DNA of 38,432 bases from a virus: positions 1-38,432 of IMG/VR virus record IMGVR_UViG_3300017751_000064; one strand, given 5' to 3'. Under the pieces are notes generated by a model that was not told where the DNA came from, did no database searches, and was given only the letters and a program-made list of their open reading frames with translations. Below, piece by piece: positions 2,730 to 8,489 of the stretch. Each line of letters opens with the position of its first letter. Positions within the stretch are counted from its first letter, which is position 1. A program made the position numbers and the translations under genes.

Positions 2730-3263
2730 TCAGCTTAGTGGATCTGCGTCATAGATTGGAGCATTGCCAGTAGTAATACCAGACATTGCAACTAGAACTT
2801 CTTTCTTAACTCTGTAGTTACCATGAGTATCGTTATAAGTGGTAACTCCAACCCAACCAACACCAGTCTCGAAGACGGTTCCATTTGCGTTCTGAGCACC
2901 TTGCGCTGCTACACCGTAGACATAAGCATCAGCAGTGCCACTAGAAGACTCACTGTACTTAACGTCTCCAACAGTGTATGAAGGACACTGACTTGCAGAG
3001 AAGTTAGTGGCAGCAATTGCAGCACCACTAAGACCTGCAGTAGATGCAATTGTTAATTGTGTTGTGCTCTGAATAGATGCTACGACAGCATCACCAAAAT
3101 AAACACCAGATACGGGATCATCACCAAATCTGATGACATCACCTGCTTGAATAGATCCAGCATTACCAAACCCAGTGGTGGAACCTGTCACAACACGGGT
3201 GGTGTAATTAAGACTAACGGTGCCAGCAGAGGTTACATTATCACTATTTCCCCAAAGTGCCAT
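2730..3263 (-). CDS. Putative virion structural protein (MALWGN type)
   Basis: This 177-aa protein is rich in Gly, Ala, Ser, Thr and Val, with many predicted short beta strands (TTRVVTGSTTGFG, AGDVIRFGDDPVSG). This is typical of phage head or tail decoration-like proteins. The MALWGN opening and the FGNAG...GDVIRF region are familiar from cyanophage genes near structural clusters. The ATG at 3263 has an AAAGGA ribosome site about nine bases upstream. Two perfect TATAAATA boxes lie upstream at 3304-3297 and 3355-3348, so strong late expression is likely. I infer a virion role from composition and promoters; no specific position in the particle can be given. Confidence 0.75.
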   Translation of the reverse strand: MALWGNSDNVTSAGTVSLNYTTRVVTGSTTGFGNAGSIQAGDVIRFGDDPVSGVYFGDAVVASIQSTTQLTIASTAGLSGAAIAATNFSASQCPSYTVGDVKYSESSSGTADAYVYGVAAQGAQNANGTVFETGVGWVGVTTYNDTHGNYRVKKEVLVAMSGITTGNAPIYDADPLS

Positions 3264-3604: not shown

Positions 3605-5104
3605 TTACTTCTTCTTGGTATCTATGATTGCACCTTGACCATGCTTGGCACGGATTTGTGCTTTCACTTTTTCGACAGCAGACATACCATCATACTTTGG
3701 TTTTTTCTTACCAAATGTATTGGGTGTATTACTGACTGGTTTCTTATAACGATTGTTACCATCAACACCACCACGTTCCATGCGACGGTCTCTTAGAGAA
3801 TCTGCACCTTCTTCATTAACAACTTCCTCATACTTTACATGATCTTTGGGTTTCTTGTAGTAAGCGGGACCAGCATCAGGCATGATCTTCTTGCTTTTAT
3901 CAGAACCCTTTACCTTGATTCTCTTCTCTGCTTCATCAATCTCAACTTCTTCTTTTGCAACTTTACTTAAAGACTGCTTTCTCTTCTGTGCAATTTGCTG
4001 GTCAACCATTGCCTTCTTTTTCTGGAGAGCAATTTCTTGAGGAGACATTTCCATAGAAGTCTCTTCACTCATACGGTTAACAACTTTTTGTGCTGCTTTT
4101 TTAATTATACTTTTAACACCTTTCTTTGCTTTTTTAGGTGCTGCTGCTGCAGTTGCTTTTGCCTTTTTAACTTTATCACCAGCAGTTTGTGCTGCTTCTC
4201 TACCTTTATTGTAAGCAGCAACTTGTGCCTGAGCAGACTTTAGTCTTGCTTTCTTACCAGTAGACTTAAGTTTTTGTCTTGCAAGTCTACCAACTGCCTT
4301 CACCATACGACCAGTAGAAGTATCTTTCTCATGTGGTTTATCGGTATCATGACCAAAAGTTACTGTTGCTTCAATAAGTGCATACTCAATAGCATCTTCT
4401 ACATCATATACATCAAATCCTTCCTGAACCAACTCGTCATACACAGTATATGCAACAAGATCTACTTCATCCATCTCGGTGTTTTCTAAGATTGAAACTT
4501 CCTCAGAAATCTTAGGATTGATCTTAATAGTATTCTTTACGTTTTTTTCTTTTACTTGCTTCTGCTCTTCACTATCTTCACCAACAACTTCACGAAGATC
4601 ATCTCTCCAGTTTGAATATCCTTCACCAATCTTAGTAGTTACTTTCTTTTTACCATCGGGACTAGGAACAAATTCTCCAAATTCACCCATGGATTTATCT
4701 TTTTTATTGACATCACCACTTACATTGGTGTCAATTCTTTTAACTGCTTTCTTAACAGCACCTTTAAGATCTGTAGAAGGAACTTCTACATCAGTACTCT
4801 TCCCTTCTTTCATTGCTTTGGCAATTGCCTTACGACGTTTTAGAAGATACTTATCAGTCTTATCAACCTTCTTATCATTATTCACATCAGAATCTTCTTG
4901 TCCTACAGGATCAAGTTGCTTTTCCTCAAAGTGAGGGTTCTTCATTTGAGGACCCTTAGCAAGTTCTTTACGTGCCTTCTCATTATTTGCCTGACGTTTC
5001 TTCATATCGGGTTCAAGATATGAATCGTCCTTTTTCTTTTCAGCAATGGCTGCTACCTTCTCAAGATATACTTGAGAAATATCGTTAAGAGGATTCATTG
5101 ACAT
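3605..5104 (-). CDS. Lys/Ala/Glu-rich virion-type protein, 499 aa
   Basis: This is a long, highly charged, low-complexity protein with no membrane segment. The N-terminus (NPLNDISQVYLEKVAAIAEKK) and an internal GYSNWRDDLREVVGE block (about residues 163-177) are motifs I associate with cyanophage particle proteins. A central basic Ala/Lys stretch (about 280-345) could bind DNA or pack as an internal head protein. Many L/I-x-E tripeptides are present, the type of site cut by T4 prohead protease gp21. A CATAAATA late-type box lies 35 bases upstream in the preceding gene. Placement inside the head is inferred, not shown. Confidence 0.75.
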   Translation of the reverse strand: MSMNPLNDISQVYLEKVAAIAEKKKDDSYLEPDMKKRQANNEKARKELAKGPQMKNPHFEEKQLDPVGQEDSDVNNDKKVDKTDKYLLKRRKAIAKAMKEGKSTDVEVPSTDLKGAVKKAVKRIDTNVSGDVNKKDKSMGEFGEFVPSPDGKKKVTTKIGEGYSNWRDDLREVVGEDSEEQKQVKEKNVKNTIKINPKISEEVSILENTEMDEVDLVAYTVYDELVQEGFDVYDVEDAIEYALIEATVTFGHDTDKPHEKDTSTGRMVKAVGRLARQKLKSTGKKARLKSAQAQVAAYNKGREAAQTAGDKVKKAKATAAAAPKKAKKGVKSIIKKAAQKVVNRMSEETSMEMSPQEIALQKKKAMVDQQIAQKRKQSLSKVAKEEVEIDEAEKRIKVKGSDKSKKIMPDAGPAYYKKPKDHVKYEEVVNEEGADSLRDRRMERGGVDGNNRYKKPVSNTPNTFGKKKPKYDGMSAVEKVKAQIRAKHGQGAIIDTKKK

Positions 5105-5118
5105 GAGTATAAAATGTT

Positions 5119-6345
5119 TTACTTTTTAGCCTTATACTTATTTATGAAATTCTTAATAGCACTAGTTCCAGTCATTCTCATCGTATAATTTCTATTTGCA
5201 TCAGTTCCAACTTCCCTCTCTGGACCAGATACACCAGAAGGACCAGGATAATTTACAACTGCTTCCATCACATCCTTAATCCAGGACTTGAACATGTAGT
5301 TCTCTTTAGTAACACAAATGAGATGATTAGTTCCTCTACGAATAATCTCACCAACCAATCCAGTGTTTAGATTCTCTACAATATCTCCAAGACTAAAAAT
5401 TTTCCCAGAGATATAGTTCTCACGAAGTCCTTTATGATCATACTTAGGAGCAATTTCCCACATCTCTGCAGTAACCTTTTGCTTACTCTTCAGTTTCATA
5501 CCAGTACGAACTGCGTTGAAGAGTGCTTTAGTATCACCATCATCAAGTTTCTTTGGTGTTCCTCTACGGAATGAATTAAAGTCACCATCAATAACTGCCT
5601 TACGCATCTTAGATGCAGACATCCCTTCTACACCTTCTGCATCTGCATCTCTTACACCAGCAGAGATGACACGAATCAAATCAAACTCATAAAGTTCACC
5701 ATTATATTTCTGAGCAAGATTTTCAAATTCTGCTTGTCGATCTGAACCAACAACGATATTTACATTCCCATATCCATCTTCATTTGCTGCGACAAGAACA
5801 TCAAAGATATTTTTCATTTCTGGATCATTGACAATGTTCTCTTCATAGTCAGAGAACATCTTCTTCATAAATGAAATCTTCATATCAGGGTCAAGAGGAT
5901 TCTTCTTTGGATCCTGAGAACGTGAAGGAAATACTTTATAGTCTCCACCAGTAGATGATTTCTTTGCCATACTCAAAAGTTTTTCATGTCCAACTGTTGG
6001 TGGATTAAATCTACCAAACACTATAGTTAGTGTATCAGACTGTTGCTCCTCACCTTCTTCTGGTGGTGCTTCTTTCTTAGAACTACCTTTGGGTTCTTCT
6101 TTACCTTGCTTATTTTTAGTTTCGTCTTGCTTCTGTGTAACCTGATTAGTATTCTGGTTGCCGTCCCTTTCACCAACCTTCTGATTTTTATTATAGAACT
6201 TCAGTTTGCCACTTTCAGTTTTCGCAACAAATTCTCCACGGGAGTCATACCAACCACCATGTCCATCACTCTTAAGGTTGAGTTTCTTTGCCTGTGCTGA
6301 GGCACCCTCACCTGCTTCTTTTAGGAACTGTAGAAAACTTTTCAT
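5119..6345 (-). CDS. NMNAT/cytidylyltransferase-fold protein with capsid-targeting-like leader
   Basis: This 408-aa protein has three parts. Residues 1-11 (MKSFLQFLKEA) closely resemble the T4 capsid-targeting leader of internal head proteins (MKTYQEF..EA), including an L-x-E|A cut site. Residues about 28-51 hold a GGWYDSRGEFVAKT...GKLKFY block, followed by a Gln/Lys/Glu-rich linker. A nucleotidyltransferase core begins near 106: VFGRFNPPTVGH at 109-120 (T-x-G-H in place of the usual H-x-G-H), GSDR at 200-203 and SASKMR at 243-248, which resembles the family's ISxTxxR loop. The last 80 residues include a small beta-rich region (GDIVENLNTGLVGEI). Packaging and ejection into the host are inferred; the substrate is unknown. 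Confidence 0.8.
   Translation of the reverse strand: MKSFLQFLKEAGEGASAQAKKLNLKSDGHGGWYDSRGEFVAKTESGKLKFYNKNQKVGERDGNQNTNQVTQKQDETKNKQGKEEPKGSSKKEAPPEEGEEQQSDTLTIVFGRFNPPTVGHEKLLSMAKKSSTGGDYKVFPSRSQDPKKNPLDPDMKISFMKKMFSDYEENIVNDPEMKNIFDVLVAANEDGYGNVNIVVGSDRQAEFENLAQKYNGELYEFDLIRVISAGVRDADAEGVEGMSASKMRKAVIDGDFNSFRRGTPKKLDDGDTKALFNAVRTGMKLKSKQKVTAEMWEIAPKYDHKGLRENYISGKIFSLGDIVENLNTGLVGEIIRRGTNHLICVTKENYMFKSWIKDVMEAVVNYPGPSGVSGPEREVGTDANRNYTMRMTGTSAIKNFINKYKAKK
5139..5146 (-). promoter_or_regulatory. Late-type promoter box CATAAATA
   Basis: CATAAATA on the minus strand lies inside the last codons of the nucleotidyltransferase gene, 35 bases before the ATG at 5104. The spacing matches the other late boxes in this cluster, but it is also coding sequence, so chance is possible. 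Confidence 0.4.
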
Positions 6346-6368: not shown

Positions 6369-6376
6369 TATTTATT
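6369..6376 (-). promoter_or_regulatory. Late-type promoter box AATAAATA
   Basis: AATAAATA on the minus strand overlaps the TAA stop of the 444-aa gene and sits 24 bases before the ATG at 6345. An AAGGA ribosome site lies between the box and the start. Confidence 0.5.
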
Positions 6377-7706
6377 CCAATTTCCAGTACGGGGCTGACA
6401 ATGATGATCTAGAATTTGCATAGAGATAAAAATCCTCGCAAACTTGCTTCTGTTTTTCAGAATTTGTTATACCATTGATAGCATCTATGATTGCAATACA
6501 ATGGACTTTTGAATATAACCAAGAATCGAATTGTTTTTTCTTAGTCTTCTCTACTTGCAATTTAGCAAACTTTTCAACTGTGTATCCTGTTGCATATTTT
6601 TTTAGACCCTCACTAACATATTTTACAATATCTGTTGGATCTGACTTTATCTTTTTGGCATATGTAGTGTCTATCTGAGGAACACCATGCATCTTGAGAA
6701 GAAGGTTAACTGGTCCTAAAGATATTTTTCCTTGATTTGCCTTTTGACCTTTCACTTCACCTTGCCATCCAGTTAATGCATTAGCACCACCAAAAGATCT
6801 AAACTGAATCTTTGTACCATCTTTAAAATTCAAATACGTGTCAATACTATCATAATTCATGGTGAAGTTAGTGAACTCTTTTTCCAGAGAATCTTTTTTA
6901 TCGTAATTAAGAACCTTTAGATTAGAAGTTCTAGACATCTTTTTGAGAGAAACTCCAAACATCTTTGGATCGGATGGATTGATTCTTTCATTCATACATT
7001 GATTCAATCCTTTGATTGATTTCTCATTTTCTAAACAGTCAGGATTGTACTTTGGTGTTGTTGCATATATGTCTGCTGGAGACCACTTATTAATATCAAT
7101 TCTTATTCCTTCAATCTTTTTAATTCTTTTAAATTGATTTTCAATATGATCTACTGTCTTTGATCCCCTATGAAATACTATTCCACTTTTAATACCTTTA
7201 AATTTCTCCCATAACTCATTGGCACCCAGGACTGACGATTCAATCCAATCATCAGGAAGTTCATTCAAGATCTTCTCAATATTTTCATCTATGTCAAACT
7301 TATCTTTATTTGCATTAACATTATCTGGAGTAATATCTGAGTGCGTTATCTTTCTTCCAAGACCAAATGCTACTGCAGCATAAACTGCTTGTGCAGATTC
7401 TGCCATTTTAGTGACAGCTGCACCAGCACCAGATCCACCACCAGATTTTGGTTTGAATACAATATTTAAGTATGTGGAAGAACTCTCAGATACCTTTAGA
7501 CCTTCAAAAGTAGATCCAGGAACTTTGGTTTGTTCTACCTTTATACCTTTCTTAGCAAATGCTGCTTTAATTTCTTCCCTTGCTTCCGATCTTTCTTTAG
7601 TGCGAACATGGAGGGTTGTAACTCTAGTTCCAGCACTCTTTACTTCAGTATCATAGTCCTGAAGAATATCGTTAAGGGCAAGTAATGTTTCTGCTACAGT
7701 TGCCAT
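6372..7706 (-). CDS. 444-aa virion-cluster protein with a possible PD-(D/E)XK-like core
   Basis: I recognise this only as a conserved-type phage protein. Visible blocks are FKPKSGGGSGAGAAVTK (about 84-100), a helical stretch AESAQAVYAAVAFGLG, FHRGSKTVDHIENQFKR (about 177-193), KWSPADIYATTP (about 206-217) and MFGVSLKKMS (about 247-256). The spacing of an acid in PADI and a lysine in VSLKK resembles a PD-(D/E)XK nuclease core, and the later GWQGEVKGQ could be part of the same fold. This is an inference from motif shape. The ATG at 7706 has an A-rich leader and no Shine-Dalgarno sequence; the late box is only 13 bases upstream. No capsid-targeting leader is seen. Confidence 0.7.
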   Translation of the reverse strand: MATVAETLLALNDILQDYDTEVKSAGTRVTTLHVRTKERSEAREEIKAAFAKKGIKVEQTKVPGSTFEGLKVSESSSTYLNIVFKPKSGGGSGAGAAVTKMAESAQAVYAAVAFGLGRKITHSDITPDNVNANKDKFDIDENIEKILNELPDDWIESSVLGANELWEKFKGIKSGIVFHRGSKTVDHIENQFKRIKKIEGIRIDINKWSPADIYATTPKYNPDCLENEKSIKGLNQCMNERINPSDPKMFGVSLKKMSRTSNLKVLNYDKKDSLEKEFTNFTMNYDSIDTYLNFKDGTKIQFRSFGGANALTGWQGEVKGQKANQGKISLGPVNLLLKMHGVPQIDTTYAKKIKSDPTDIVKYVSEGLKKYATGYTVEKFAKLQVEKTKKKQFDSWLYSKVHCIAIIDAINGITNSEKQKQVCEDFYLYANSRSSLSAPYWKLE

Positions 7707-7733: not shown

Positions 7734-8489
7734 CTAGGCAGCCTTTGCTCCTGACTTATGACGTTCGGTTCCCTTCTCATCAGTATATGATTCTTTCTCC
7801 CTTCTAGGAGTTACATAACCTACACCAGGAACTACACCAGTCTTACCAGCAGCTCTGGCAGCATTTCTATCTGCTGCTCTCTGTGCTGCTCTCTTGCGAT
7901 TGCGGTCATAAGAACTCATTGCTTCGTCAAAATGCTCATCAGCTTCTAGGATAGCATTGATCTCCTCTTCTGTAAAGATGCCAGTTGCTTCTAGTTCTTC
8001 TTTTTTCATCTTAGTTTTGCTGTCCATTGCCATACGGCGTTTGAACTGCTTATCTGCTTCTTTGTTATCACCACTGTGTTGGGCACGTTGATCATTATCA
8101 TATGCATTTCTCTTTGCCCTATCAACACGCAGTTTGCGCTCAGGAGTCATTGGCTCGTATCCTTCTGCCTCAACTTCTTCATTTGCTTTATTCAAAGTCT
8201 TGGTGATTTTCTTGGAACGTTCCATTGCCTCTGGACTTCCATCACGTCCAAGATTACCTGCTTTACGGAACATCTTGTTCTTAGGGAGTTCTTTCTTCTC
8301 CTCATCCATATGGTCAGCAGACTTGTACATAGGACTACCGTCCTTCTTTTTCATTCCTGCCTTATAATTCTGATATGCTTTAGTATTACCTTTCTTATCA
8401 GCAGCAGTGACAGTATACGTTTCTTCTACGTTGTCAGTATAAACCGCAGAATATGCTTCAGAAAGAGAGTTGAAAGTCTTGCTGTCCAT
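7734..8489 (-). CDS. Charged virion-type protein with L-x-E|A leader, 251 aa
   Basis: This basic, low-complexity protein has no enzyme motif. The start (MDSKTFNSLSEAYSAVY) contains L-S-E|A, the consensus type for T4 prohead protease, and the SLSEAY..VY pattern is one I associate with cyanophage particle proteins. A Lys/Glu/Arg-rich body follows, with an Arg/Ala stretch (RNRKRAAQRAADRNAARAAG, about 199-218) and a GVVPGVGYVTPRR segment. Such composition fits an internal head or DNA-associated protein. A CTAAATA box lies 22 bases before the ATG at 8489. Virion location is inferred. Confidence 0.7.
   Translation of the reverse strand: MDSKTFNSLSEAYSAVYTDNVEETYTVTAADKKGNTKAYQNYKAGMKKKDGSPMYKSADHMDEEKKELPKNKMFRKAGNLGRDGSPEAMERSKKITKTLNKANEEVEAEGYEPMTPERKLRVDRAKRNAYDNDQRAQHSGDNKEADKQFKRRMAMDSKTKMKKEELEATGIFTEEEINAILEADEHFDEAMSSYDRNRKRAAQRAADRNAARAAGKTGVVPGVGYVTPRREKESYTDEKGTERHKSGAKAA

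Follow-up and report, generated by a model that had tools for sequence, protein, structure and literature searches.

A nucleotidyltransferase of T4-like cyanophages with a T4-type capsid-targeting leader: predicted packaging into the phage head

We analysed a 38-kb virus record (the window, meaning the whole stretch of DNA) in which a gene on the minus strand is likely to encode an active nucleotidyltransferase directed by its N-terminal leader into the head of a T4-like cyanophage, as judged from the sequence. Packaging of the enzyme by a leader of the T4 capsid-targeting type is well supported by conservation of the leader, by the published mass-spectrometric detection of relatives in virions, and by the occurrence of the leader or a linked module on other virion enzymes. 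The new part seems to be the targeting leader together with the portable module, while virion presence is the published part. No earlier report of the leader or the module was found in the open-access literature, to which our search was confined (subscription papers lay outside it). Cyanophage virion proteomes keep yielding enzymes that may be contaminants or real cargo, and a head-loading tag would make cargo status predictable.

The proteins encoded in the window keep the gene order of Synechococcus phage S-SCSM1 (Kyanoviridae), a T4-like cyanophage and the nearest isolate; this order runs from the major capsid protein, UvsW, gp55, gp46/47, polymerase and UvsX to primase. The gene encodes 408 amino acids, and ORF91 of S-SCSM1 is 88.5% identical to its product over the full length. 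The protein matches the phrog_395 'cytidyltransferase' profile (E 2.6e-104) and has relatives in 534 phage records. SSM2_161 of S-SM2, annotated 'T4-LIKE GC: 190', is 69.4% identical, which places the protein in the T4-GC190 cluster of Sullivan, a core gene of cyanophages (PMC3037559). The S-SCSM1 record flags ORF91 as a virion protein, and the same flag is carried by its neighbours ORF89, 90, 92, 93, 95 and 97. T4-type late-promoter-like boxes of the form NATAAATA precede the gene and the virion-gene counterparts at 6372-7706, 3605-5104 and 2730-3263 by 12 to 84 nt. The enrichment calculated for these boxes relied on a gene list compiled by hand and serves as a rough guide only. The features are collected in Table 1. 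No Rfam RNA was found in the window, and a PADLOC search matched nothing.

Table 1. Features of the nucleotidyltransferase gene and of its neighbours in the window
Feature	Position	Strand	Basis or remark
Leader-bearing nucleotidyltransferase ORF, 408 aa	5119..6345	-	phrog_395, T4-GC190 family
Capsid-targeting leader MKSFLQFLKE, residues 1-10	6316..6345	-	gp21-type cleavage predicted between E10 and A11
Mini-domain (AKKLNLKSDGHGGWYD..GKLKFYN), residues 14-54, common to unrelated virion proteins	6184..6306	-	HMM, BLASTP, phrog_3561
Variable disordered linker, K/E/P/Q-rich, residues 55-104	6034..6183	-	pLDDT about 30; highest column entropy
Nucleotidyltransferase core, residues 105-265	5551..6033	-	AlphaFold, Foldseek, CTP_transf_like in 28/31 members
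GRFNPPTVGH, residues 111-120	5986..6015	-	T-x-G-H form of H-x-G-H
SRSQDPKKNPL, residues 141-151	5893..5925	-	aligned with NadM SAQKSHTLENPF motif
GSDR, residues 200-203	5737..5748	-	G, D, R invariant
SASKMR, residues 243-248	5602..5619	-	equivalent of I-S-x-T-x-x-R; S243, R248 invariant
Small C-terminal beta domain, residues 304-361	5263..5436	-	predicted structure; phrog_4808, phrog_22379
AATAAATA, T4-type late-promoter-like box	6369..6376	-	23 nt upstream of start codon
ORF90 counterpart; flagged as a virion protein in S-SCSM1	6372..7706	-	phrog_1462; late-promoter-like box upstream
ORF89 counterpart; flagged as a virion protein in S-SCSM1	7734..8489	-	starts MDSKTFNSLSEA, cut-site-like only
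ORF92 counterpart; flagged as a virion protein in S-SCSM1	3605..5104	-	phrog_1418; late-promoter-like box upstream
ORF95 counterpart; flagged as a virion protein in S-SCSM1	2730..3263	-	phrog_3086; two late-promoter-like boxes upstream

The N-terminal leader and presence in virions

The first-pass annotation had likened the first 11 residues, MKSFLQFLKEA, to the T4 capsid-targeting sequence in position, pattern and cut site, and this likeness is borne out. IPII and IPIII of T4 both begin with MKTYQEFIAEA, and the cyanophage protein agrees with them at every genetically defined position. Genetic work on the T4 leader assigns residues 4 and 7 to targeting and residues 8 and 10 to processing (PMC9026906). 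F4 and F7 are present here and kept among relatives, and residues 8 to 11, L8-K9-E10-A11, fit the [LI]-x-E|[AGS] motif of a prohead-protease site. The leader was found in 79 of 80 IMG/VR relatives that had been fetched by body peptides only; F4/L4, F7, L8, E10 and A11 are kept, and position 9 is N, S, K, G or T. Two divergent subfamilies, likewise searched without the leader, carry it in 80/80 members (for example MRFRQFIIEA and MITFHVFITEA) and in 78/79 (for example MKTFGKFLTEA; two of the 78, MTNKNFTSWLSEA, were counted by eye). At the codon level, the kept F7 is written TTC 42 times and TTT 37 times, E10 is GAG in 53 cases and GAA in 26, L8 uses six codons (with one change to Ile) and A11 four. 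Read from these codons, the leader is under purifying selection, its amino acids being kept while the codons vary.

In 1.71 Mb of DNA from relatives, 215 ORFs begin with the strict leader pattern, all of this nucleotidyltransferase family. Across IMG/VR the leader pattern gave at least 120 matches, and 79 of 80 loci had it at the start of an ORF; a control pattern with E-A swapped to A-E gave 36 matches in all of IMG/VR, mostly internal or out of frame. The leader is absent from some relatives (GAP32, S-CAM1). The first-pass annotation had placed the mature N-terminus at residue 12. This needs correction by one residue, since T4 gp21 cuts after E10 and the predicted N-terminus is therefore A11. 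The cut context FLAE|A of the S-SCSM1 capsid protein resembles FLTE|A of T4 gp23 and is of the same type as that of the leader. A gp21-type prohead protease is annotated in S-SCSM1 (ORF40) and S-CREM2 (gp143); the window fragment ends short of this gene.

Virion mass spectrometry of the family covers four cyanophages, all relatives of this phage rather than the phage itself. S-SCSM1 ORF91 was detected in virions (PMC9602691), as were T4-GC190 in S-SM1 (PMC3037559), ORF154 in S-CREM2 with 3 peptides (PMC10665884) and S-SZBM1_140 with 2 peptides (PMC9146016). The low peptide counts in S-CREM2 and S-SZBM1 would suit an enzyme made late in the cytoplasm that reaches virion preparations only by CsCl carry-over, its N-terminal helix having another role such as oligomerisation, and the S-CREM2 authors themselves allow for such carry-over (PMC10665884). 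We regard this explanation as unlikely: four phages independently yielded a member of the family, every position of the leader behaves as in a T4 capsid-targeting leader, down to the variable position 9 and the E|A cut site, and the leader or module is common to unrelated virion-detected proteins. The packaging half of the earlier proposal, that the enzyme is packaged and injected, is well supported by leader conservation and the virion data from relatives, and injection stays a prediction. Its further suggestion of a new type of injected effector stands in part. Virion association of the family and possible injection had been published between 2010 and 2023; the targeting leader was not found in the available text of those papers.

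We prefer leader-directed packaging, which may proceed as follows. The enzyme would be a head cargo protein expressed late. Residues F4 and F7 of the leader would bind the prohead core, and the prohead protease, a gp21 homologue, would cut at L8-x-E10|A11. The freed enzyme would remain in the head beside the DNA and may pass into the host cell upon infection, where the core would most likely transfer an adenylyl group to a small nucleotide-like molecule; the best guess is NMN or NaMN, with NAD(+) or NaAD as product.

The enzyme core and its substrate

FGRFNPPTVGH, GSDR and SASKMR all occur as the first-pass annotation described them, and the proposed NMNAT/cytidylyltransferase-like core agrees with AlphaFold, Foldseek and the family profiles. 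AlphaFold gave a pLDDT of about 90 over most of residues 105-285 and low confidence for the linker. Structural comparison of the predicted model by Foldseek matched NadD, CoaD and NadM with a best E of 1.6e-5; CoaD structures, with a TMt of up to 0.69, match the core about as well as NadD, and identity to NadM, NadR and NadD in structural alignments is 10-17%. An alignment of the family profile to the NMN adenylyltransferase MJ0541 is weak (E 0.007) and spans the G-R-F-x-P and N-P motifs. Among 31 diverse members, the NCBIfam models nadR_NMN_Atrans and NadD matched 20 (best 3e-7) and 27, respectively, and the CoaD model TIGR01510 matched 7 (best 0.0019). The 408-aa protein itself scores below the curated cut-offs (13.4 of 112 bits for TIGR00482 and 15.4 of 21 for PF01467), and a phmmer search with this protein alone against PDB gave chance matches only. 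The structural and family-wide matches support assignment of the modelled core to the NadR/NadM-NadD/CoaD fold of the nucleotidyltransferase superfamily.

The two-His form G-x-F-x-P-x-H-x-G-H is replaced here by T-x-G-H, with T117 in place of the first His, a substitution that the first-pass annotation had left to be explained. Bacterial CoaD carries T-x-G-H, and H-x-G-H occurs in sister subfamilies (S-N03, S-CREM2 and P-RSM6-type relatives). The Thr can thus be understood as a natural variant, and for the same reasons it is no argument for inactivity. The I-S-x-T-x-x-R-type motif is present as M-S-A-S-K-M-R. Residues G111, R112, P115, G119, H120, S141, D145, N149, P150, K156, G200, D202, R203, S243 and R248 are invariant in the 31 members. 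This invariance of catalytic motif residues across distant relatives bears on whether the protein could be a scaffold-like component of the head core whose enzymatic fold is no longer active. The position of the gene among virion genes, the status of T4-GC190 as a cyanophage core gene and the replaced His would all accord with such a role. The invariant residues, the H-x-G-H retained in sister subfamilies and the fusion of some relatives to a kinase domain argue against it, and we consider it improbable, about as much so as carry-over.

For a packaged, active enzyme, adenylyl transfer to NMN or NaMN is our best guess at the reaction from the sequence, held at roughly even confidence. A partner for NAD reconstitution (NAPRTase/NAMPT family, PF04095) was not found in six related genomes. 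Somewhat less probable, though still a serious candidate, is a packaged enzyme with a different target of adenylylation: another small molecule, in the manner of PPAT or FAD synthetase, a protein, or, in concert with a ligase-like partner, the end of a nucleic acid. The T-x-G-H form and the CoaD structural matches are consistent with this, as are the DUF6267 gene directly upstream in many relatives (fused in phrog_455) and the P-loop kinase domain (AAA_33, zeta, PNK-like) of another subfamily. Against it, sequence profiles favour NadR, NadD and NadM over CoaD, a fold search with DUF6267 yielded nothing significant (best E 0.2), and in the window the counterpart position is not occupied by DUF6267.

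The ligase-type motifs KxDG, EGxV and KxVxR of DUF6267 are invariant. We did not adopt its identification as a ligase in view of that fold search, and the fold match of the model to ligases is suggestive only. At four loci (L100, L115, L123 and L157) the leader directly precedes the nucleotidyltransferase core; at L100 and L115 the kinase domain (AAA_33/zeta/PNK-like) follows the core, an arrangement reminiscent of the domain order of NadR.

Leader and mini-domain on other proteins

An HMM of family residues 14-54 matched S-CREM2 gp14 (6.9e-20) and gp12 (1.5e-11), and BLASTP of the N-terminus of the 408-aa protein against that of gp12 gave 7e-10. Both gp12 and gp14 are listed in the virion table (PMC10665884), and the module of leader plus a mini-domain of about 40 aa occurs on both, gp12 being labelled 'Cas9-like'. 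Leaders of the F-x-x-F-x-x-E type start the S-CREM2 virion proteins gp6, gp13, gp14 (an APH-like kinase) and gp136. In IMG/VR, among the matches listed, the leader also starts ligase-like, HAD-like, metallopeptidase-like and small basic proteins.

Virion enrichment was assessed at CDS starts only, because loose six-frame leader scans give chance internal matches. In S-CREM2, 5 of 6 CDS with the F-x-x-F-x-x-E pattern belong to the virion set (P 0.003); this is not an independent test, as the pattern was loosened after the virion list had been seen. A stricter scan of this genome, demanding E[AGS], retained only gp154 at a CDS start. For S-SCSM1 the count is 3/4 (P 0.016), two of the three being ordinary structural proteins, and for S-SZBM1 it is 1/5 (P 0.53), with a slightly broader pattern and a shallow proteome of 30 proteins. 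The leader proteins S-SZBM1 gp191 and gp192 and S-SCSM1 ORF30 were not detected in virions.

Several single loci may be recorded here. S-CREM2 gp12 (L095 7704-10313), which is virion-detected, has the leader-like LRFASFMAEA with the mini-domain and ends in TFRDFLN; no Pfam family supports its Cas9/Csn1 annotation. The product of gp6 (L095 3837-5081), found in virions, belongs to the SAM lyase family (PF23780, E 2.3e-19), begins with MKDFDSFLEE, and is possibly a head-packaged anti-restriction enzyme. The virion-detected gp156 (L097 31012-31725) shows a weak match to a nucleotidyltransferase domain of the Pol-beta type (PF01909, E 3.4e-4). A gene run of S-CRM01 (L420 4249-8827) has the leader-like starts MNFSEFLEAIE, MISFDQFLSE (kinase PKN8), MKKLDQFLTE, LSLDSFIKEA with a mini-domain, and MKLFNQFFKEA (nucleotidyltransferase); kinases have been reported from S-CRM01 virions. 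Leader-like sequences also stand at C-termini, TFKEFLEYIE in S-SCSM1 ORF93 (L003 41626-41835), a small flagged virion protein, and TLKEFLENI in a small S-SM2 protein (L421 8644-9117), and may be C-terminal copies of the targeting motif.

Its presence on several unrelated enzymes makes the tag look like a general label for loading proteins that are injected at infection. From these sequences we lean towards the view that marine T4-like phages package a variable assortment of enzymes by means of one portable N-terminal tag, the leader with or without the mini-domain, and that the head cargo includes the nucleotidyltransferase, the ligase-like DUF6267, a protein kinase, a SAM lyase, and HAD-like and Cas9-labelled proteins. 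This wider reading is likely but not settled, because the support is uneven among the three genomes. If it is true, the host would receive a kit of enzymes from the virion at time zero, and head cargo could be read directly from any genome by the tag. An early-infection function, as the tag would suggest, would also help to explain why the nucleotidyltransferase is widely conserved in marine T4-like phages.

Comparison with known systems

The leader resembles those of IPI, IPII and IPIII of T4 in length, in the pattern M-K-x-[FY]-x-x-F-[LI]-x-E-A and in the type of cut site, and in being a short tag on otherwise unrelated proteins. Unlike the internal proteins, the cargo here is a predicted enzyme conserved across a phage group, with cleavage and ejection at the level of prediction. 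T4 Alt, a packaged and injected ADP-ribosyltransferase, offers a parallel for the head-carried, injected enzyme proposed here. The first-pass annotation had Alt packaged by the same leader, but Alt starts with MELITELFDE and so lacks the F-x-x-F leader, and it belongs to another enzyme class.

The virion-detected enzymes of S-SCSM1, S-SM1 (T4-GC190), S-SZBM1 and S-CREM2 are of the same family, and S-SCSM1 ORF91 has the same leader. Some of the papers on them suggest effects on NAD; their available text does not mention the targeting leader or the shared module. The core shares with NadM (MJ0541), NadR and NadD the fold, G-R-F-x-P-...-G-H, the N-P motif and the S-x-[ST]-x-x-R motif, but differs from them in the Thr in place of the first His, in the additional leader, mini-domain and C-terminal domain, and in a substrate that is only predicted. 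With CoaD it has in common the fold and T-x-G-H, whereas the profile match to CoaD is the weaker one.
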